Source of the DNA: Streptomyces mobaraensis NBRC 13819 = DSM 40847
GTDB taxonomy: Bacteria > Actinomycetota > Actinomycetes > Streptomycetales > Streptomycetaceae
DNA: 64,000 nt
NCBI RefSeq assembly: GCF_017916255.1
Contig: NZ_CP072827.1
Location: 2,108,001-2,172,000 of the forward strand
Reading direction: 5' to 3'
Below, piece after piece: positions 50,390 to 59,521 of the stretch. Positions within the stretch are counted from its first letter, which is position 1. Each line of letters opens with the position of its first letter. The position numbers and the translations under genes are program-made. The notes below the pieces were generated by a model. That model was not told the DNA's origin, searched no databases, and worked only from the letters and a program-made list of their open reading frames with translations.

Positions 50390-53300
50390 CTACCCCCCGT
50401 AAAACCGCTCCTCGACCACGGCCCGAGCCCGCCGAGTAACCCGCCGGTAATCGTCAAGCATGTCCCCGACGTGCCCCGGCTCGTACCCCAGATACCGCCC
50501 CACCGCCGCCAACTCCCGAGGATCACCCGGAAACGTATCCCCGGGCCTCCCCCGCACCAACATCACCGCATTCCGCACACACGTCGCGAGCACCCACGCC
50601 TCGTCGAGGATCCGCGCCTCGTCGGCGTCCAGGAAGCCCGCGGCGTGGGCGGCCGACAGCGCCTCCCGGGTACGCGTCGTCCGCAGCCGCGGCTCCGCAT
50701 GCCCATGCCGCATCTGCAACAGCTGGACGGTCCACTCCACATCGGAAAGCCCCCCACGCCCCAGCTTGGTGTGGGTGGTCCGATCGGCTCCCCGGGGCAG
50801 CCGCTCCGTCTCCATCCGCGCCTTGAGCCGCCGGATCTCCCGGACGGCGTCCTCGGACAGCCCTTCCGCCGGATACCGCAAAGGATCGATCATCTCGACG
50901 AACCGCCGCCCGAGGTCCGCGTCACCGGCGACCGGCTCCGCCCGCAGCAGCGCCTGGCTCTCCCAGACCAGCGACCACCGCCGGTAGTACGCCGCGTAGG
51001 AAGCGAGACTGCGCACCAGCGGCCCCGACTTCCCCTCCGGCCGCAGATCCGCGTCGATCAGCAACGGCGGGTCCGTCGTCGGCAGTTGCAGCAGCCGCCG
51101 CATCTCGTTCGCGACGGCGAAGGCGGCCTTGGCGGCCTCTTCGTCGCCGACGCCCTCCCGGGGCTCGTGCACGAGCAGGACGTCCGCGTCGGACCCGTAC
51201 CCCTGCTCGCGCCCCCCGAAGCGGCCCATGCCGATGACGGCGAACCGCGTGGGCAGGGTGTCGCCCCACTCCGCGCGGACGGCGGCGCGCAGGGCCCCCG
51301 CCAACGCGGCGGCGTTCAGGTCGGAGACGGCCCGGCCGACGAGGTCGCAGCGGGCGCCGTGGTCGCGCGACCCGTTTTCCGGCGCGGGCGCGCCCGGGCG
51401 TCCGTAGGCGCCCACGATGTCGGCCGCGGCGGTACGGAACAGCTCCCGCCGCCGCACCCCCCGCACCGCGACGATCGCCTTCTCCGCGTCCTCGGCCCGG
51501 CCGACGGCCGCCAGCGTCTCCTGCTCCAGCGCCTCGCGGTCGCGCGGTCGCAGCCCTTCCGGGGCGCCGAGCAGGGCGACCGCCTCGGGGGCGCGCAGCA
51601 GCAGGTCGGGGGCGAGCCGCCCGGCGGACAGGACGCGGGCGAGGTTCTCCGCGGCGGCGCCCTCGTCGCGCAGCAGCCGCAGGTACCAGGGTGTCTTGCC
51701 CAACGCGTCGGAGACCTTGTGGAAGTTGAGCAGTCCCGCGTCGGGGTCGGAGGAGTCCGCGAACCAGCCCAGCAGCACGGGCAGCAGCGTACGCTGGATC
51801 GCCGCCTTCCGGGTCACTCCCGAGGCAAGCGCCTCCAGATGGCGGAGCGCGGCGGCGGGGTCCGCGTACCCCAGCGCGCCCAGGCGCTGCCCGGCGGCCT
51901 TCGGACTGAGCCGGATCTCGCCCGGTTCGAGCTGGGCGACGGCGTCCAGCAGCGGCCGGTAGAACAGCTTCTCGTGCAACCGGCGCACCTCGCGGGCGTG
52001 CCGCCGCCACTCCTTGCCCAGTTCGGCGACGGGTTCCGTCCGGAAACCCAGCGACCGTCCCAGCCGCCGCTGTTCGGCCTCGCTCTCGGGCACGAGGTGC
52101 GTACGCCGCAGCCGGTGCAGCTGGATGCGGTGTTCCATGGCGCGCAGGAAGCGGTAGGCGGCGTCCAGCGCGGCGGCGTCGGCCCGTCCCACGTACCCGC
52201 CGGCGGCGAGCGCGGCCAGCGCGTCCAAGGTGCCGCCGCTGCGCAGCGTGGCGTCGCTGCGGCCGTGCACGAGCTGGAGCAACTGGACGGCGAACTCGAC
52301 GTCCCGCAGCCCGCCGGGCCCGAGTTTGAGCTCGCGGTCGAGCCGGTCGGCGGGGATGGAGGCGACGACGCGGCGGCGCATCTGCTGCACGTCGGGGACG
52401 AAGTTCTCGCGCTCGGCGGCCTGCCAGACGAGCGGCGACACGGCGTCCGCGTACTCCTGCCCGAGCCCGGGGTCGCCGGCCACCGGCCGGGCCTTGAGCA
52501 GCGCCTGGAACTCCCAGGTCTTCGCCCACCGCTGGTAGTACGCGAGGTGGCTGCTGAGCGTGCGCACCAGGGGCCCGTTGCGGCCCTCGGGGCGGAGGTT
52601 GGCGTCGACGGGCCAGATGGTGCCCTCGGGGGTGATGTCCGAGCAGACCCGCATCATGCGGGAGGCGAGCCGGGTGGCGGCCCGGAGCGCGGTCCCCTCC
52701 GGGGTGTCGCCGCGCGGTTCGGCGACGAAGACGACGTCCACGTCCGACACGTAGTTGAGTTCGTGGCCGCCGCACTTGCCCATGCCGATGACGGCGAGCC
52801 GGCAGGCCGCCGCGTCGTCGGGGTGCTCGTCGGTGGCGATGGCGAGGGCGGCGCGGAGGGTGGCGGTGGCCAGGTCGGCGAGTTCGGCGGCGGTCTCGGC
52901 GACGTCGGTGGTGCCGGTGACGTCCCGGGCGGCGACGGTGAGCAGGCAGCGCCGGTAGGCGGCGCGCAGCGCGTCGGACGGCACGAGTCCGGCCTCCCGG
53001 CCGGCCGCGGCCCCCTCGGCGAGGGCGCGCTCGAACTCGGCCGTTCCGGGATGGAGATCGGCCCGCTCGAACGTGACGAGCGCGTGCCAGTCGCCCGGGT
53101 GCCGGGCGAGGTGATCGGCGAGCGCCTCGGACGCGCCGAGCACGCCCAGCAGCCGGTCGCGCAGGGGTTTCGCGCTGACGACGGTGTCCAGCAGCTCCTG
53201 CCGTTCGGCCGCCCCGCGCTTCGCCTCCAGCGCCTCGGCCAGCCGGACGAGGCCGAGCAGCGCGAGATCGGGGTCGGCGGTCGCGCCCAGCGCGTCCAGG

Positions 53301-53446
53301 AACACGGGATCGTCGCGCAGCGCCGCCAGCCCGTCGGCGTCGTCGAGCAGCCGCTCGGCGGCGGCCGGATCGACGAACCCGCTCCGCACGAGCCTGGTGT
53401 ACGTGCTACCGCGCCGGCTCTCGGGCCGCCCGTCCGGCACTGTCAT
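50390..53446 (-). CDS. glnE: glutamine synthetase adenylyltransferase/adenylyl-removing enzyme
   Basis: 1018 residues from ATG 53446 (MTVPDGRPES). Two nucleotidyltransferase domains: the N-terminal one with GMGKCGGHELNYVSDVDVVFV near residue 235 (adenylyl removal) and the C-terminal one with GMGRFGGREQGYGSDADVLLVHE near residue 735 (adenylylation). The linker carries the GlnD_UR-like helical bundles. It modifies Tyr397 of GlnA (20.9 kb). GlnA2, next to it across the island, lacks that Tyr. Homologous to GlnE of other Streptomyces; not obviously part of an operon. Confidence 0.96.
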   Translation of the reverse strand: MTVPDGRPESRRGSTYTRLVRSGFVDPAAAERLLDDADGLAALRDDPVFLDALGATADPDLALLGLVRLAEALEAKRGAAERQELLDTVVSAKPLRDRLLGVLGASEALADHLARHPGDWHALVTFERADLHPGTAEFERALAEGAAAGREAGLVPSDALRAAYRRCLLTVAARDVTGTTDVAETAAELADLATATLRAALAIATDEHPDDAAACRLAVIGMGKCGGHELNYVSDVDVVFVAEPRGDTPEGTALRAATRLASRMMRVCSDITPEGTIWPVDANLRPEGRNGPLVRTLSSHLAYYQRWAKTWEFQALLKARPVAGDPGLGQEYADAVSPLVWQAAERENFVPDVQQMRRRVVASIPADRLDRELKLGPGGLRDVEFAVQLLQLVHGRSDATLRSGGTLDALAALAAGGYVGRADAAALDAAYRFLRAMEHRIQLHRLRRTHLVPESEAEQRRLGRSLGFRTEPVAELGKEWRRHAREVRRLHEKLFYRPLLDAVAQLEPGEIRLSPKAAGQRLGALGYADPAAALRHLEALASGVTRKAAIQRTLLPVLLGWFADSSDPDAGLLNFHKVSDALGKTPWYLRLLRDEGAAAENLARVLSAGRLAPDLLLRAPEAVALLGAPEGLRPRDREALEQETLAAVGRAEDAEKAIVAVRGVRRRELFRTAAADIVGAYGRPGAPAPENGSRDHGARCDLVGRAVSDLNAAALAGALRAAVRAEWGDTLPTRFAVIGMGRFGGREQGYGSDADVLLVHEPREGVGDEEAAKAAFAVANEMRRLLQLPTTDPPLLIDADLRPEGKSGPLVRSLASYAAYYRRWSLVWESQALLRAEPVAGDADLGRRFVEMIDPLRYPAEGLSEDAVREIRRLKARMETERLPRGADRTTHTKLGRGGLSDVEWTVQLLQMRHGHAEPRLRTTRTREALSAAHAAGFLDADEARILDEAWVLATCVRNAVMLVRGRPGDTFPGDPRELAAVGRYLGYEPGHVGDMLDDYRRVTRRARAVVEERFYGG

Positions 53447-53649
53447 CCCATCGCCCCATCGCCTCCAGCTGACCATGCCCGGTCAAGGCCCGATCTCCAG
53501 CGTATCGACAGCGGCGCCGGGGTGAGAGGCGGCACCCACCCCCGATCGGGGCCGAAACCCCGGTTCCCGCCCCGGGCCGTCGCCGTGCCTGCCACGCTGC
53601 CGACCAGCACCGCGGGGACGCCGGTGGCCGGTACGTGGAGGTGGCGCGA

Positions 53650-54489
53650 ATGAGTGACGAGAACGGGTGGGAGCTCGACCCCGACGACGAGTCCGTGGTG
53701 CTGGTCGCCGCGGTGGGACGGCAGCTGAAGCTGTGGCGGGAGGCGGCGGGAATGGACGCGGCGGCACTGGCGGCGGCCCTCGGCTACGGCAGGGAACTGA
53801 TCTACAAGGTGGAGCGGGGCGAGCGCGTCCCCCAGCCGCGCTTCCTGGAGAAGGCGGACGAGTTGCTGGGGGCGGGCGGGAAGCTCGCCGCCATGCGGGA
53901 GGACCTGACGGAGGCGCGCTACCTGAAAAAGGTCCGGGACATCGCGAAGCTGGAGCGGGACGCCGTCGAGCTGTGGGCGTACGACAACTCCGTCATCGAC
54001 GGACTCCTCCAGACGGAGGCTTACGCACGGGCGGTGTACACCAACCGCCGCCCGCCGTTCGCCCAGGACGAGATCGAACGGCGCGTGGCCGCGCGGATGG
54101 CTCGGCAGAAGACCGTCACGGCTTCGGCGCGACACCCCTCCTTCAGCTTCGTGCTGTGCGAGGCGACGCTGCGCCGCACCATCGGGGGCGGAACGGCCAT
54201 GCGGCAGCAGCTCCGCCACCTGCTGGAGATCGGCCGACGGCCGAACGTGGAGCTCCAAGTCCTGCCCCTGCGCAGCGAGGAGAACTGCGGCCTCGACGGG
54301 CCGTTCAGACTGCTGAAGCTCACGAACGGCACGATGGTGGGACTGTACGGGGTGCAACTCTTCAGCCGCGTGGTCACCGACGCGAAGGAGCTCCAAGTCC
54401 TGGACCTGCGCTACCGAGCCGCCCGGGCGCAGGCGCTCGGACCGCAGGAGTCCCTGGTCTTTGTCGAGAAGGTACTGGGGGAAACATGA
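53650..54489 (+). CDS. XRE-family regulator with DUF5753 domain
   Basis: 279 residues from ATG 53650 with GGAGG at 53637-53641. N-terminal helix-turn-helix (VGRQLKLWREAAGMDAAALAAALGYGRELIYKVERG, landmarks LGYGRELIYKVERG) and C-terminal DUF5753 (AYDNSVIDGLLQTEAYARAVY, then VLCEATLRRTIGG and FVEKVLGET). In Streptomyces such genes usually have a small DUF397 gene at their 3' end. Here only a 15-codon frame (54486-54533) overlaps the stop by ATGA, so the partner is lost. That loss coincides with the CRISPR-like repeat and the island downstream. Confidence 0.88.
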   Translation: MSDENGWELDPDDESVVLVAAVGRQLKLWREAAGMDAAALAAALGYGRELIYKVERGERVPQPRFLEKADELLGAGGKLAAMREDLTEARYLKKVRDIAKLERDAVELWAYDNSVIDGLLQTEAYARAVYTNRRPPFAQDEIERRVAARMARQKTVTASARHPSFSFVLCEATLRRTIGGGTAMRQQLRHLLEIGRRPNVELQVLPLRSEENCGLDGPFRLLKLTNGTMVGLYGVQLFSRVVTDAKELQVLDLRYRAARAQALGPQESLVFVEKVLGET

Positions 54490-54577
54490 CCCTCGGGTCT
54501 TCCGGAGAGGATAGAGCGGCGATGAGGAAGTGAAGGAAAACGCCGTCGCTCCACAGGAACGATGCAGGTCACGAAGT

Positions 54578-54606
54578 GTGGTCCCCGCGCACGCGGGGAT
54601 AGTCCG
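54578..54606 (+). CRISPR. isolated type I-E-like CRISPR repeat, copy 1
   Basis: 29 nt with palindromic centre CCCCGCGCACGCGGGG (54583-54598) and an ending GTCCG, as in Streptomyces type I-E repeats. A weaker, altered copy seems to start about 60 bp later (54637-54665). No array, no cas gene. It is 24/29 identical to the copy at 58075. Confidence 0.5.
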
Positions 54607-54745
54607 CGCCGGGCGGTGACTTCGCGGGCCAACGTGGGGCCCACAGCGCGCAGCGACACCCCCGGCACCACTACCTGGGCCCGCAGCTACCAACCGCGAG
54701 CCCCGCCACACCCCTTGAGGCGAGAACCCCCGCCCGCCCCCCGAC

Positions 54746-54950
54746 CTAAAGAACCGGCAGCATCTTCCTCGGCTCGAACGCCGTGACCTCCGACCGGTAC
54801 TCCTCCCACTCCTGCTTCTTGTTGCGCAGGAAGAAGTCGAAGACGTGCTCGCCCAGCGTCTCCGCGACCAGTTCGCTCCGCTCCATCAGCTCGATCGCCT
54901 CGCCGAGGTTCTGGGGCAGGGATTCGATGCCCATGGCGCGACGTTCTCGT
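54746..54950 (-). pseudogene. displaced 3' fragment of glnA2
   Basis: Encodes RRAMGIESLPQNLGEAIEL to the stop, the last ~65 residues of GlnA2. In the last 60 residues only two differences from the intact gene are seen (Ser for Pro after GIE; Pro for Leu in FEPRKML). At DNA level I count roughly 16 mismatches over 200 bp, mostly silent. It has lost all upstream domains. Offset to the intact gene is exactly 3414 bp. Confidence 0.85.
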
Positions 54951-54989
54951 TCGACAGCAAGACCGTGGCTTCGAACGACACAGTGAGCG

Positions 54990-56282
54990 CTACCGGGCGG
55001 GCAGCCCGATGCCCGCAGCAAGTTCCCGCCACCCAGCCGTGTGGGGGTGCCGGTTGACCAGATCAACAGCGACGCGGCGGATCGCCGGCCGGTCCGTAAC
55101 CTCGGCCGGGGAAGTACGCAGGGCCTCCAGCAGGGCGTCGGCGGTCTGCTGGGGCTTGCCCCACTGCCACCAGGCGCGGGCCAGGTCGGTGTGCATGCGG
55201 GCCCTCCGCTCGGCCGTCGGGAACTGCCCCGGGCGCAGCTCACGGCCGACGTGGAGGGCTGCGCCGGCGTCCCCGAGGGCCCAGTGGACGCCGACTTCAT
55301 AGAGGGTGACGGCGGCCGGGCTGATGGAGAAGGCGGCTCCCGTCGGCGGGATGTGCGGCAGGCGGCGGGCCGCGCGCGAGGCTTCGGAGATCAGGGCGAG
55401 GGCCTGGTCGCGGTGACCGGCCCGAGCGGCGGTGTACGAGGTGGTGCACAGCATCTGCGCGTACGCCATGCTCTGCGCCCGGGTGGACAGGCCGGTCCGC
55501 TCGACGGCGGCCAAGGCACTGTCCACGAGGCGCTGGGCGGCGTCCGGCCGGCCTTGGTGCCGCAGGACGATGCTCAGCTCGCGGGACGCGGCGGCGGTGG
55601 CGATCGGGTCGCCGGAGAGGTCCGCGTAGGTGATGGCCCGGTCGGCGGTGATCCGGGATCGCTCGTAGTGGCCGATCTTCGTCAGCACGCGCGAGGCCAG
55701 CGAGTAGCAGGACGACAGGGTCGCGTACGTGGCCTCCGTGCGGGCGGCGGTTGCGGCGCGGGCGTCGGCCAGGAGCGCGGGCAGTGCTTCGAGGAGCTGG
55801 GCGTGGCGGCCGGCGTCGAACAGGCCGTGGGCGCGGGCCAGGCGCGGGGCGACGGAGGCCGGAGGGCTGTGCGGTTCGGGTGGAGCGGCGAGCGCCTCGT
55901 CGATGCCGGCCAGGAGCTGGAGGGGGACGGCGGTTCCGGCAGCGGCGAGCAGTGAGCGGCGGCGCAACGGGTCCTCCTCGGCATGACGCTGACCGGACGG
56001 CGCCACTGTAGTGGGCGCCCCCGGCCCGAGGCCGACGGTCGCGGCCAGAACATCTGTCGGTAACCCCACCTCGCGGGCGGCGCGCCGCAGCAGCCCGATG
56101 TCGGGGGTGCCGCTGCGTTCCAGGCGGGAGACCGTGGAGGCCGAGCAGCCCACCCGGCGGCCGAGGTCGGCTTGCCGCCACCCGAGATGGACCCGTCCGA
56201 GCCGGATGAGCGCGCCGGCTCGGCGGTGGCCGATCAGGGCGACGGCTTCGGGGGTTCTCCACAGCGCATCGGTGTTCACCAC
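54990..56282 (-). CDS. XRE-family regulator with TPR domain
   Basis: 430 residues from GTG 56282 or GTG 56279 (both GTG; GGAGGT is immediately upstream, so the second is better spaced). Helix-turn-helix at residues 22-75: LIRLGRVHLGWRQADLGRRVGCSASTVSRLERSGTPDIGLL, landmarks GCSASTVSRLERSG. Next comes RRRSLLAAAGTAVPLQLL near residue 110, then TPR-like repeats. This is a common Streptomyces orphan regulator type. It is divergent from the Cys-rich gene, with palindrome GTGCAG-CAT-CTGCAC at 56348-56362 between them, a probable operator. Confidence 0.85.
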   Translation of the reverse strand: MVNTDALWRTPEAVALIGHRRAGALIRLGRVHLGWRQADLGRRVGCSASTVSRLERSGTPDIGLLRRAAREVGLPTDVLAATVGLGPGAPTTVAPSGQRHAEEDPLRRRSLLAAAGTAVPLQLLAGIDEALAAPPEPHSPPASVAPRLARAHGLFDAGRHAQLLEALPALLADARAATAARTEATYATLSSCYSLASRVLTKIGHYERSRITADRAITYADLSGDPIATAAASRELSIVLRHQGRPDAAQRLVDSALAAVERTGLSTRAQSMAYAQMLCTTSYTAARAGHRDQALALISEASRAARRLPHIPPTGAAFSISPAAVTLYEVGVHWALGDAGAALHVGRELRPGQFPTAERRARMHTDLARAWWQWGKPQQTADALLEALRTSPAEVTDRPAIRRVAVDLVNRHPHTAGWRELAAGIGLPAR

Positions 56283-56347
56283 ACCTCCAGCGGGCGCAGG
56301 ACCGGCGCGCCAACCGTACGTGCGGGCCCGGCGGCCGTCGAGAGCGC

Positions 56348-56362
56348 GTGCAGCATCTGCAC
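56348..56362. promoter_or_regulatory. palindrome in divergent promoter, candidate XRE-TPR operator
   Basis: GTGCAG (56348-56353), CAT, CTGCAC (56357-56362), a perfect 6-bp dyad between divergent genes. Confidence 0.5.
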
Positions 56363-56471
56363 ACCGTGTGCGACCAGCGGCAATCGATCACCACGGGCCC
56401 GCGGCCGGCGGTGTACTGGGGGCACGCCCCCGGCTCGCGGGGCGGCAGGTCCGAGCAGCAGGGAGGACAGT

Positions 56472-56918
56472 ATGGCAACGGCAGTCGAGGCCAGGCCGAA
56501 GGTCCGTGATCCTCGGGACTACGTCAAGCCCGAGGTGTGGGAGCGGGAGATCCAGCTGCTGATGCGGGACTACCCCTTCGACGAGGTGTACGCGAACAGG
56601 CTCTTTCACGCGGCCGTCTCATACCTGATCACGGCGATGGAGAAGTGGGGGCAGAAGCTGGAGATGTGCTGCGGCCGGACCGTGGACATCGCCGTTCACA
56701 CCTTCATCCTGGACACCCGCAATTACCGCGAGTTCTGCCACGAGCACTTCCAGGGCCGGTTCCTGGAGCACATCCCCGAGATCGCGTTCAAGTACGACGG
56801 GTCGGTCGAACGCACCGCGAAGATCATCGCCGAGAACGGGTTCGAGGTGGACTGGAAGCTCTGGGAGGCGGACTACGCCAAGTGCGGGCCGTGCGCCCCG
56901 GGCACCAGCTGCCACTGA
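56472..56918 (+). CDS. Cys/His-rich small protein, GRDP-like (DUF1399-like)
   Basis: 148 residues from ATG 56472 with GGGAGGA at 56461-56467. The centre AVSYLITAMEKWGQKLEMCC, then TVDIAVHTFILDTRNYREFCHEHFQGRFLEHIPE (landmarks VDIAVHTFILDTRNY), has the pattern of glycine-rich-domain-like proteins: VD..HTF..DT..Y..FC. The C-terminus AKCGPCAPGTSCH adds three Cys. Six Cys and several His suggest a metal site. It is conserved-looking and sits beside a SAM methyltransferase gene and a divergent regulator. A precursor-peptide role for the Cys tail is possible but unsupported. Confidence 0.7.
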   Translation: MATAVEARPKVRDPRDYVKPEVWEREIQLLMRDYPFDEVYANRLFHAAVSYLITAMEKWGQKLEMCCGRTVDIAVHTFILDTRNYREFCHEHFQGRFLEHIPEIAFKYDGSVERTAKIIAENGFEVDWKLWEADYAKCGPCAPGTSCH

Positions 56919-57071
56919 GCGGAGCGGAACGGTCAGGCCCGGGGGCGCCGCGAGCGTCCCCTGGCCCCTTCGTGGGCCGAGCGGGCGGAGTTCGGCGAAC
57001 ACGCCTCGGCGGCGGGGCGGCGCCGGTACGGTGGCGAACTCACGTGGCCCGCCGTTCCCGCGAGGAGCCCC

Positions 57072-57743
57072 ATGCCCCGCCCGCCCCTCACCCCCGCCGA
57101 ATACTGGGACCTCTACAAGCCCCACCGCGGCGAGGGCGACCAGCCGGCCCCGCCCGTCGGCCCGTTCGAATGGACGCAGTTCCCCGGTCACGGGCCCGGC
57201 CCCGAACTCCTCGGCACGCCCCGCACCGTCCTGGAACTCGGGCCGGGAGAAGGCACCGACGCTGTCTACCTCGCCCGCCGCAGCGCCCAGGTGACCGCCG
57301 TGGACTTCTCCGCCCACCAGATCGAACGGGCCCGACGCTGGTGGGCGGACGAGCCTGGCGTCACCTTCGTCCACGCCGACGTGTGCCACTTCCTGATCAC
57401 CGAGGCCACCGAGTACGACGCGATCTACTCCATGTGGGGCGCGGTCTGGTTCACCGACCCCGACCGGCTCCTGCCGCTGGTCGCCAAGCGGCTCACCGCC
57501 GGCGGTGTCTTCGTCTTCAGCCACGCCGAGCCCACCCCCGATGTGTACGGGCCCCAGCAGATGCGCGGCAAGTGGCTGGAAGGACGCGAGCGCGAACTGA
57601 CCGTCCTGCGCTGGCAGTACGCCCCCCATATGTGGGCTGACCTGCTGAAGCGCCACGGCTTCGACGACGTCGACGCCCGAATCCTCCCGCCGCCGGGCGA
57701 CGAGGCCCTGGGCACGCTGCTCGTGCGCGCCTCAGTGGGCTGA
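57072..57743 (+). CDS. class I SAM-dependent methyltransferase
   Basis: 223 residues. The SAM-binding motif LELGPGEGTDAVYLARRSAQVTAVDFSAHQIERAR (landmarks ELGPGEGTD and AVDFS) and the later motif YDAIYSMWGAVWFTDPDRLLPLVAKRL, GGVFVFSHAEP are class I. The N-terminal YWDLYKPHRGEGDQ is that of a small-molecule methyltransferase group. It lies 153 bp downstream of the Cys-rich gene in the same direction, so may act on it or its product. A hairpin at 57777-57812 ends it. Confidence 0.85.
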   Translation: MPRPPLTPAEYWDLYKPHRGEGDQPAPPVGPFEWTQFPGHGPGPELLGTPRTVLELGPGEGTDAVYLARRSAQVTAVDFSAHQIERARRWWADEPGVTFVHADVCHFLITEATEYDAIYSMWGAVWFTDPDRLLPLVAKRLTAGGVFVFSHAEPTPDVYGPQQMRGKWLEGRERELTVLRWQYAPHMWADLLKRHGFDDVDARILPPPGDEALGTLLVRASVG

Positions 57744-57776
57744 AGGGTCCCTGCCCTTTGCGGTTATCACGAAGAG

Positions 57777-57812
57777 AAGAGGCCCCGGCGGGTACTGCCG
57801 ACGGGACCTCTT
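57777..57812 (+). terminator. terminator of the methyltransferase gene
   Basis: AAGAGG (57777-57782) pairs with CCTCTT (57807-57812); the inside continues with an imperfect CCCCGGCGGG/CCGACGGG stem. Confidence 0.55.
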
Positions 57813-57986
57813 GACGCCTTACCGATCTTTCGGCGCTTGTTCAAGCCGGTTCTCCCTCTCCGGCTCCGATGATCCCGCGGGCGAGCACCGCCCCGCCGGT
57901 GTCCGCCTTCCCGGCGGCCCGCAGGGACGGTTCCTCCTCTTCAACGGCCGTGCGGCGGTCGTCGGCTACGGCCTCGGCCTCGGCCC

Positions 57987-58079
57987 GTCAAGGCCATCGC
58001 CCAAGAGCCCGCCGAGGACGTACGACAGGTGGAGCTGGAGCGCCTCGACCAACTGTATGAGCGCGCGGTCAAGAGCGGC
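57987..58079 (+). pseudogene. coding remnant of unknown gene cut at the CRISPR-like repeat
   Basis: 31 codons reading VKAIAQEPAEDVRQVELERL and DQLYERAVKSG have strong coding character (charged amphipathic helix, no start codon). The pattern recalls the middle part of small phage/plasmid proteins, but I cannot name a family. It stops exactly at the CRISPR-like repeat at 58075. The rest of 57744-58159 (416 bp) shows no gene. Confidence 0.4.
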
Positions 58080-58103
58080 CCCCGCACACGCGGGGACATT
58101 CCG
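58075..58103 (+). CRISPR. isolated type I-E-like CRISPR repeat, copy 2
   Basis: 29 nt, centre CCCCGCACACGCGGGG; 24 of 29 bases match copy 1 at 54578. It is 57 bp before the glnA2 stop. No cas genes or array. Confidence 0.5.
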
Positions 58104-58159
58104 GCAGCAGTACCTGAGCCCACAACCAAAACGCGGAAAACCCCGCCCGCCCCGCCGGG

Positions 58160-59521
58160 CTAAAGCACCGGCAGCATCTTCCGGAGCTCGAACGCCGTGA
58201 CCTCCGACCGGTACTCCTCCCACTCCTGCTTCTTGTTGCGCAGGAAGAAGTCGAAGACGTGCTCACCCAGCGTCTCCGCGACCAGTTCGCTGCGCTCCAT
58301 CAGCTCGATGGCCTCACCGAGGTTCTGCGGGAGGGGCTCGATGCCCATCGCGCGCCGCTCCGCGTCGGAGAGGGCCCAGACGTCGTCGTCGGCGCCGGCG
58401 GGAAGTTCGTAGCCCTGCTCGATGCCCTTGAGGCCGGCGGCCAGCAGGACCGCGTACGTCAGGTACGGGTTGGCGCCGGAGTCGATGGAGCGGACCTCGA
58501 CGCGCGTCGAGCCGGTCTTGCCGGGCTTGTACATGGGGACGCGGATGAGGGCGGAGCGGTTGTTGTGGCCCCAGCAGATGTAGGACGGGGCCTCGCCGCC
58601 CGCGCCGGCGGTGCGCTTCGAGCCGCCCCAGATGCGCTTGTAGGAGTTGACCCACTGGTTGGTGACGGCGGAGGTCTCGGCCGCGTGCCGGAGGAGGCCG
58701 GCGATGAAGGAGCGGCCGACCTTGGAGAGCTGGTACTCGGCGCCGGACTCGTGGAAGGCGTTGCGGTCGCCCTCGAAGAGGGAGAGGTGGGTGTGCATGC
58801 CCGAGCCGGGGTACTCGGAGAACGGCTTCGGCATGAAGGTGGCGTGCACGCCCTGCTCCAGCGCGACCTGCTTCATCACCAGGCGGAAGGTCATGATGTT
58901 GTCGGCCGTGGAGAGCGCGTCGGCGTACCGCAGGTCGATCTCCTGCTGGCCGGGGGCGCCCTCGTGGTGGCTGAACTCGACCGAGATGCCCATGGATTCG
59001 AGCATGGTGATGGCCTGGCGGCGGAAGTCCATGCCCACGTTCTGCGGGGTGTGGTCGAAGTAGCCGGAGGAGTCGGCGGGCACCGGGCGGGTGCCGTCCA
59101 CCGGCTTGTCCTTGAGCAGGAAGAACTCGATCTCGGGGTGGGTGTAGAAGGTGAAGCCGAGGTCGGAGGTCTTGGCGAGGATCCGCTTGAGGACGTAGCG
59201 GGGGTCCGCGTACGACGGGGAGCCGTCCGGCATCAGGATGTCGCAGAACATCCGGGCGGTGCCGGGGGCCTCGGCGCGCCAGGGGAGGATCTGGAAGGTG
59301 CCCGGATCCGGCTTGGCGATCATGTCGGATTCGTACACACGAGCGAATCCCTCGATCGCGGAGCCGTCGAATCCGATGCCCTCGTCGAACGCCTGCTCAA
59401 GCTCCGCCGGGGCGACGGCGACCGACTTCAGGTAGCCGAGCACATCGGTGAACCACAGCCGCACAAAGCGGATGTCGCGCTCCTCGAGGGTGCGGAGCAC
59501 GAACTCCTGCTGCTTATCCAT
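58160..59521 (-). CDS. glnA2: gamma-glutamylpolyamine synthetase, GlnA2-type glutamine-synthetase homologue
   Basis: 453 residues from ATG 59521. Glutamine-synthetase fold signatures: FDGSAIEGFARVYESD, HPEIEFFLL, PFSEYPGSGMHTHLSLF and NNRSALIRVP. The adenylylation Tyr is replaced (DDDVWALSDAE), so GlnE should not act on it. Position next to glnE matches GlnA2 of S. coelicolor, shown to glutamylate polyamines such as putrescine. The last 65 codons are also found 3414 bp away as a fragment. Its own 3' end might therefore be the copy brought in by the island; that cannot be decided here. Confidence 0.92.
   Translation of the reverse strand: MDKQQEFVLRTLEERDIRFVRLWFTDVLGYLKSVAVAPAELEQAFDEGIGFDGSAIEGFARVYESDMIAKPDPGTFQILPWRAEAPGTARMFCDILMPDGSPSYADPRYVLKRILAKTSDLGFTFYTHPEIEFFLLKDKPVDGTRPVPADSSGYFDHTPQNVGMDFRRQAITMLESMGISVEFSHHEGAPGQQEIDLRYADALSTADNIMTFRLVMKQVALEQGVHATFMPKPFSEYPGSGMHTHLSLFEGDRNAFHESGAEYQLSKVGRSFIAGLLRHAAETSAVTNQWVNSYKRIWGGSKRTAGAGGEAPSYICWGHNNRSALIRVPMYKPGKTGSTRVEVRSIDSGANPYLTYAVLLAAGLKGIEQGYELPAGADDDVWALSDAERRAMGIEPLPQNLGEAIELMERSELVAETLGEHVFDFFLRNKKQEWEEYRSEVTAFELRKMLPVL

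Follow-up and report, generated by a model that had tools for sequence, protein, structure and literature searches.

A duplicated glnA2 3' end around a gene cassette in Streptomyces mobaraensis, at a probable integrase attachment site of other genomes

The stretch analysed here, called the window throughout, comprises 64,000 nucleotides (nt) of Streptomyces mobaraensis NBRC 13819 = DSM 40847 (contig NZ_CP072827.1, positions 2,108,001 to 2,172,000), and its subject is an island of three genes that lies between two copies of the 3' end of one gene. This gene (58160..59521, minus strand) encodes a 453-aa protein with the Pfam domains Gln-synt_N and Gln-synt_C and is presumably the amine-metabolism gene glnA2, a name we take from a preliminary description of the window and from synteny with glnE. 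In other genomes, its 3' end is, by comparative genomics, very probably the attachment site (attB) of tyrosine integrases of the type carried by actinomycete integrative and conjugative elements (AICEs). The island in the window bears no mark of such integration and was probably not placed by a glnA2 AICE integrase. We tentatively propose that the cassette arrived on DNA of another streptomycete, together with the 3' end of that organism's glnA2, by recombination with the resident gene at this AICE hotspot.

The two copies were found by a repeat search (family D1) as a direct repeat of 225 nt with 90% identity, at 54722..54946 (the distal copy) and 58136..58360 (the near copy), both on the minus strand, in the same orientation and spaced 3414 bp apart. 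The near copy is the intact end of glnA2 with 24 nt past its stop; the distal copy is a displaced 3' end that holds nt 1–201 counted from the stop, again with 24 nt past it, and the homology stops at nt 201. The preliminary description had recognized this repeat and its offset, and drew the distal fragment slightly too long (its coding part is 54746-54946, not up to 54950). The 201 coding nt show 15 differences, that is, 92.5% identity, and the chance match of low identity over 200 bp that had been named as a ground for rejection does not apply. Third codon positions account for 12 of the 15 differences, where one third would be expected (P 0.0003); as previously stated, the changes are mostly silent, with 12 of the 14 differing codons synonymous and two residues changed. 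The further matches reported beyond each stop are also present, 16 of about 24 nt being identical (P ~0.0003 against random 24-mers of the region). The distal fragment forms the end of a 184-aa open reading frame (54746-55300) that starts inside the island and probably has no meaning.

The copies differ as two species might, under coding constraint: among 3,000 random pairs drawn from 95 unique glnA2 tails, 14% were equally similar or more. Since the identity is in the range of random pairs and the differences are biased to third positions, both copies appear, judging from the sequences, to have diverged as working genes. A free fragment is not expected to diverge mostly silently; therefore, one of the copies probably belonged to the working gene of another lineage until recently. 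The copies also share an identical run of 79 nt (nt 27-105), which falls in a generally conserved part of glnA2 (2.7% of random tail pairs are identical there). When the segment nt 89-201 was searched in 199 genomes, it was single in 194, not found in four, and double only in the window's own genome (G000).

An empty site exists in the relatives. Ranking by glnE DNA, which scored 292 of 392 genomes, gave G018, G059, G035, G274 and G257 as the closest five (83-84%), and in all five the glnE match comes within about 33-48 nt of the glnA2 stop, a compact junction in which the two genes nearly touch. The preliminary description had proposed to look for an uninterrupted XRE-DUF5753/CRISPR-like/glnA2 junction; what the five closest sampled relatives show is an uninterrupted glnE-glnA2 junction. 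In the window, where glnE (50390..53476, minus strand) is the left neighbour, the gap to glnA2 is 4,684 bp and holds, besides the island, an XRE-DUF5753 gene and a unit resembling clustered regularly interspaced short palindromic repeats (CRISPR). Relatives were also ranked by glnE versus glnA2 segments for signs of a mosaic, with a signal too noisy for use. Some genomes seem to have two handles for the same contig and coordinates (G042/G214, G199/G266 and G202/G230), and the samples of different analyses therefore overlap.

The cassette between the copies (54990-57743) consists of an XRE regulator gene (54990..56282, minus strand; Pfam; 430 aa with a TPR-like region, TPR_12 falling below cut-off) and, divergent from it, genes for a 148-aa protein that matched no Pfam model (56472..56918, plus strand) and for a class I S-adenosylmethionine (SAM) methyltransferase of 223 aa (57072..57743, plus strand; Pfam). 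Relatives of the 148-aa protein occur in 112 of the 199 genomes, the window's own included. Nine other loci matched it best (L209-L217, 73.9-83% identity); all nine have the methyltransferase gene alongside, with opposite orientation in L216, and in five the XRE-TPR gene adjoins both. None of the nine was seen at glnA2: two lie more than 1.5 Mb away and seven on another contig, where a neighbourhood to glnA2 hidden by a contig end is formally conceivable. With conservation at nine other loci, none seen at glnA2, the cassette is therefore a recurring Streptomyces unit that seems to have moved here.

We then consider what else is found at glnA2. The region downstream of the gene was fetched in 60 of the 199 sampled genomes (L068-L127); these come from the upper part of a similarity list and are therefore not a random sample. 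In six of them, a further copy of the glnA2 3' end, extending to nt 85-90 from the stop, was found within 15 kb; two more have one farther out (17.5 kb in G015, 26.2 kb in G058). Integrases or their remnants were detected in seven (the weakest, L092, at E 2.5e-6), and the tyrosine integrase of L083 is separated from the stop of glnA2 by ~75 nt. Species genomes were scanned with the L091 integrase, and a tree was made of the best 80 of 250 relatives. It contains a clade of 33 integrases (support 100/99), 30 of them near glnA2; the distance to the stop is 75-80 nt for 27 and 1.1-4.5 kb for the other three. The hosts are other Streptomyces and Streptosporangiaceae. For clade member L141 the contig ends 79 nt after the integrase, and for L151 the glnA2 tail is there, broken by an N gap. 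L148 (Streptosporangium violaceochromogenes) is an exception within the clade, with no glnA2 in 9,994 bases downstream, possibly through a change of site. None of the other 47 integrases in the tree has glnA2 in the fetched DNA; a candidate, L188, was rejected as its neighbour is only a 32% paralogue.

As to the att sites, exactly one further 3'-end copy exists in 18 of 19 genomes searched, in the same direction, ending at nt 85-88 and 7.3-33.1 kb from the gene, with G210 as the exception. Seventeen of the 18 elements were fetched, L243 in part only, and the far-side copy breaks after TTGTTGCGNAGGAA in 16 of the 17, L245 differing there. The gene-side copy carries an arm motif, defined as CTGACCTG with at most one mismatch within 16 nt of the glnA2 stop on the gene side, which is present in 16/16 AICE near copies versus 0.5% of random 16-mers and in 29 of the 31 integrase loci whose glnA2 tail is complete. 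Its presence in three of 17 distal copies (L228, L232 and L235) suggests successive integrations (accretion). The motif also occurs in 22 of the 60 regions, namely in 5/7 with an integrase or remnant, 3/4 with a duplicate only and 14/49 with neither; the last 14 may be footprints of former AICEs or, alternatively, the motif may be native in some lineages. In G014 (L275), an inverted 66-nt glnA2 3' end was noted ~5.8 kb from glnA2. Taken together, the integrase clade, the repeats of at most 88 nt flanking elements of 7-33 kb, and the empty sites give strong support, in other genomes, to the earlier idea of glnA2 as a non-tRNA attachment site.

By gene content, these elements appear AICE-like. 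Integrase relatives and xis relatives were each found in 16 of the 17, the element without an integrase being the partial L243. For rep (two queries) the number is 13 and for tra (three queries) 12; eight elements combine relatives of int, rep and tra. These counts come from few queries and may miss divergent genes. The five elements outside the tra count have no Tra relative or a divergent one. L228 (S. toxytricini) encodes, besides the integrase and a NUDIX-GntR protein, a TraB (NF041214, 970 bits; cut-off 800). As replication proteins, AICEs carry RepSA, RepAM or Prim-pol/RepPP; among the candidates in the glnA2 elements, that of L233 has D5_N and DUF5906, and those of L228 and L231 matched no Pfam model. 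In its main text, Ghinet et al. 2011 (PMC3218068) defines AICEs by integrase, replication and FtsK/SpoIIIE modules; the glnA2 elements have an integrase beside the att site, flanking direct repeats and, in most, relatives of an FtsK/SpoIIIE-type transfer protein.

The window island shows neither these genes nor the junction marks of the glnA2 AICEs. Pfam finds no integrase gene between the copies, and the L083 integrase searched against 54481-58260 gave a best tblastn E of 0.13, with nucleotide matches (E 0.002 and above) that are scattered and of low identity, in agreement with the preliminary remark that no integrase is left. Both copies run unbroken through nt 85-88, the AICE crossover zone, which in the near copy falls within 58226..58247 (minus strand; nt 67-88 from the stop, holding the end zone of AICE second copies elsewhere), and both lack the arm motif (3 and 4 mismatches). 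The earlier proposal that a mobile unit entered glnA2 thus holds for the locus, a real integration site elsewhere; it does not hold as it stands for this island, which has neither break, motif nor integrase and whose 201-nt duplicate is unique in 199 genomes.

How, then, might the island have arisen? We suggest that a donor segment from another streptomycete, comprising the last 201 nt of its glnA2, the downstream flank and the cassette, recombined with the resident gene, with the crossover probably within the 79 identical nt. Were the donor molecule circular, one crossover of the Campbell type would yield one intact gene, the near copy, and one displaced 3' end, the distal copy, and the role of the locus as an AICE site may have made it permissive. 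The sequences show the duplication, its species-level divergence under coding constraint, the empty site in relatives, the lack of an integrase and of att marks, and the recurrence of the cassette elsewhere; the donor, the position of the crossover, the circularity and the enzyme are inferred. A bolder version, which we consider improbable, would make the island a mobile circle that uses a piece of its host's conserved gene as a homology arm and docks without an integrase at an integrase hotspot.

Having put forward recombination with foreign DNA, we would note several points that weigh against it. A donor search in 392 genomes with the distal copy and its left flank returned no donor among the matches listed, where only the window's own match extends left of ~54716. 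One event leaves the XRE-DUF5753 gene and the CRISPR leader, which lie between glnE and the distal copy, unexplained. The 79-nt identical run lies where glnA2 is conserved in general, and the crossover position is therefore weakly supported. The missing arm motif is not decisive because three of 11 loci with an integrase, remnant or short duplicate (L092, L114 and L118) also lack it. Finally, the closest relative found is 84% identical in glnE, and intermediate states are therefore unseen.

The main rival, which we hold to be possible if doubtful, is that the island is the scar of a strongly decayed AICE: int, xis, rep and tra would have disappeared and the cargo stayed, and the att ends would have been altered later, or else the attP already held a longer glnA2 3' end from an earlier faulty excision. 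The locus is an AICE site, and islands bounded by a short second tail are frequent there (six of the 60 regions within 15 kb, some with integrase remnants). For another AICE site, PMC9513070 describes how decay left cargo genes, a partial integrase and two direct repeats; the decayed cases L114 and L118 have likewise no arm motif. Against this, the near copy is without the motif found in every one of the 16 AICE near copies, the distal copy breaks at nt 201 instead of 85-88 and is unique among 199 genomes, and no trace of an integrase was detected. It is unlikely that the lineage duplicated its own glnA2 3' end locally in tandem and later took up the cassette between the two. This course would account for the common orientation and for the rare A at nt 4 that both copies share (found in one of the 95 unique tails), whereas silent, third-position-biased differences at species level are unexpected in a free fragment, and a duplicate without the cassette occurs in none of the 199 genomes. 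Very unlikely, in our estimate, is a different, unsampled integrase family with a longer glnA2 attachment site, since lost: direct repeats with coding continuity would fit integrases whose insertion supplies the target gene with a new 3' end, but a second copy of nt 89-201 is present in no other of the 199 genomes. An assembly artefact is scarcely credible for copies that differ at 15/201 positions in a genome assembled as a single contig of 7,574,085 bases.

Phage and plasmid origins were considered and rejected. Eight phage records match 54490-58200: in seven the match is confined to the methyltransferase, and in an unannotated record (MT835553) it lies in the glnA piece at 71.5%. The viral contigs searched gave no integrase relative and no exact 26-nt core. 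A plasmid search, which covered the left half only (54490-56300), matched 31 records; in the 20 of them listed, the matches are regulator genes at 67-71%, and coverage of the query stays below 80%.

Several claims concerned the CRISPR-like repeats. The preliminary description saw a 29-nt type I-E-like repeat before each copy, 24 of 29 positions being identical between the two; this identity is confirmed, the left repeat has a leader, and the right one is uncertain. The left unit (54527-54606, plus strand) consists of a type I-E leader-like stretch (gaagtgaaggaaaac ... gcaggtcacgaagt, 54527..54577) and a single repeat (54578..54606). The leader resembles those of five other inspected arrays of the genome (L276-L280), in most of which a GCAGGTCACGAAGT-like end precedes the repeat; with its one repeat, the unit is unlike those arrays, which have two to nine each. 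Judged as a type I-E array, it possesses a leader and a repeat and lacks a second repeat and a spacer. The right repeat-like palindrome (58075..58103, plus strand) has neither leader nor second repeat, and the notion of CRISPR-like repeats on both sides is therefore half secured. In our view the left unit is a true minimal array and the right one is doubtful: a few of the 60 regions also have isolated motifs about as good, near glnA2 in L088 (four mismatches) and L125 (three mismatches). Two other candidates near glnA2, in L109 and L119, were loose-pattern matches that failed the 4-mismatch consensus scan. In a plasmid collection, 54540-54960 matched 31 records; two match its glnA part and 29 the leader-repeat, with Streptomyces providing 26 of these 29. 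Four of these loci were inspected, with a 19-repeat array beside cas1e and cas2e in L263, three repeats in L264, two in L266 and three scattered repeat-like units in L265. Against the fetched loci, 27 spacers from other arrays of the genome matched no more than partially, over 19-22 nt at best. A CRISPR role in the recombination, as had been suggested, is unsupported beyond this one spacerless unit.

Two further features complete the locus. Between glnE and the distal copy lies a regulator gene with HTH_31 and DUF5753 (53650..54489, plus strand; Pfam), and between the cassette and glnA2 a stretch (57744-58070) is without a clear gene. A search with 57744-58360 in 61 relatives gave, left of the glnA2 flank, short and weak matches only (E 1.7e-5 and above).

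The glnA2 3' segment occurs in 195 of 199 Streptomyces genomes; being so widespread, it could therefore give, through a gene-restoring integrase clade, a new and broadly usable Streptomyces vector integration site. The clade may also explain the strong variation of the glnE-glnA2 interval in the genus (from <10 bp to >12 kb in the 60 regions, and in others beyond the fetched stretch). In addition, insertions at such a hotspot need not all be integrase scars, as the window suggests. The open-access literature searched contained no mention of glnA2 serving as an attachment site; the main text of PMC3218068 does not mention glnA, and the word 'glutamine' is absent from that of PMC9513070.

Comparison with known systems places the two findings differently. 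The glnA2 elements resemble AICEs of the pSAM2 type in their tyrosine integrase, xis-like HTH gene and, mostly, rep or tra relatives, and in integrating into the 3' end of a gene with direct repeats; they differ in that the target is the protein gene glnA2, not a tRNA gene. Such targets have precedent: the sites in Choufa et al. 2022 (PMC9513070, main text) are 36 tRNA, 14 protein-gene and one intergenic, and AICEs with pSLS-subfamily integrases are given as the exception to tRNA integration in the main text of Ghinet et al. 2011 (PMC3218068). The window island, unlike AICEs, is without AICE genes or junction marks. It is similar to the decayed AICEs (DAICEs, remnants) of Choufa et al. 2022 (PMC9513070) in having cargo between two direct repeats at a protein-coding target and empty sites in relatives; truncated integrases stay there, whereas none was detected in the island, whose repeat exceeds the AICE repeat of the site. 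Like Tn7 at glmS, as set out in a section of PMC4046053, it sits at the 3' end of a conserved metabolic gene that serves as a safe insertion site; unlike Tn7, which by the same section inserts downstream of the gene, it lies where the 3' end of the gene itself is duplicated.

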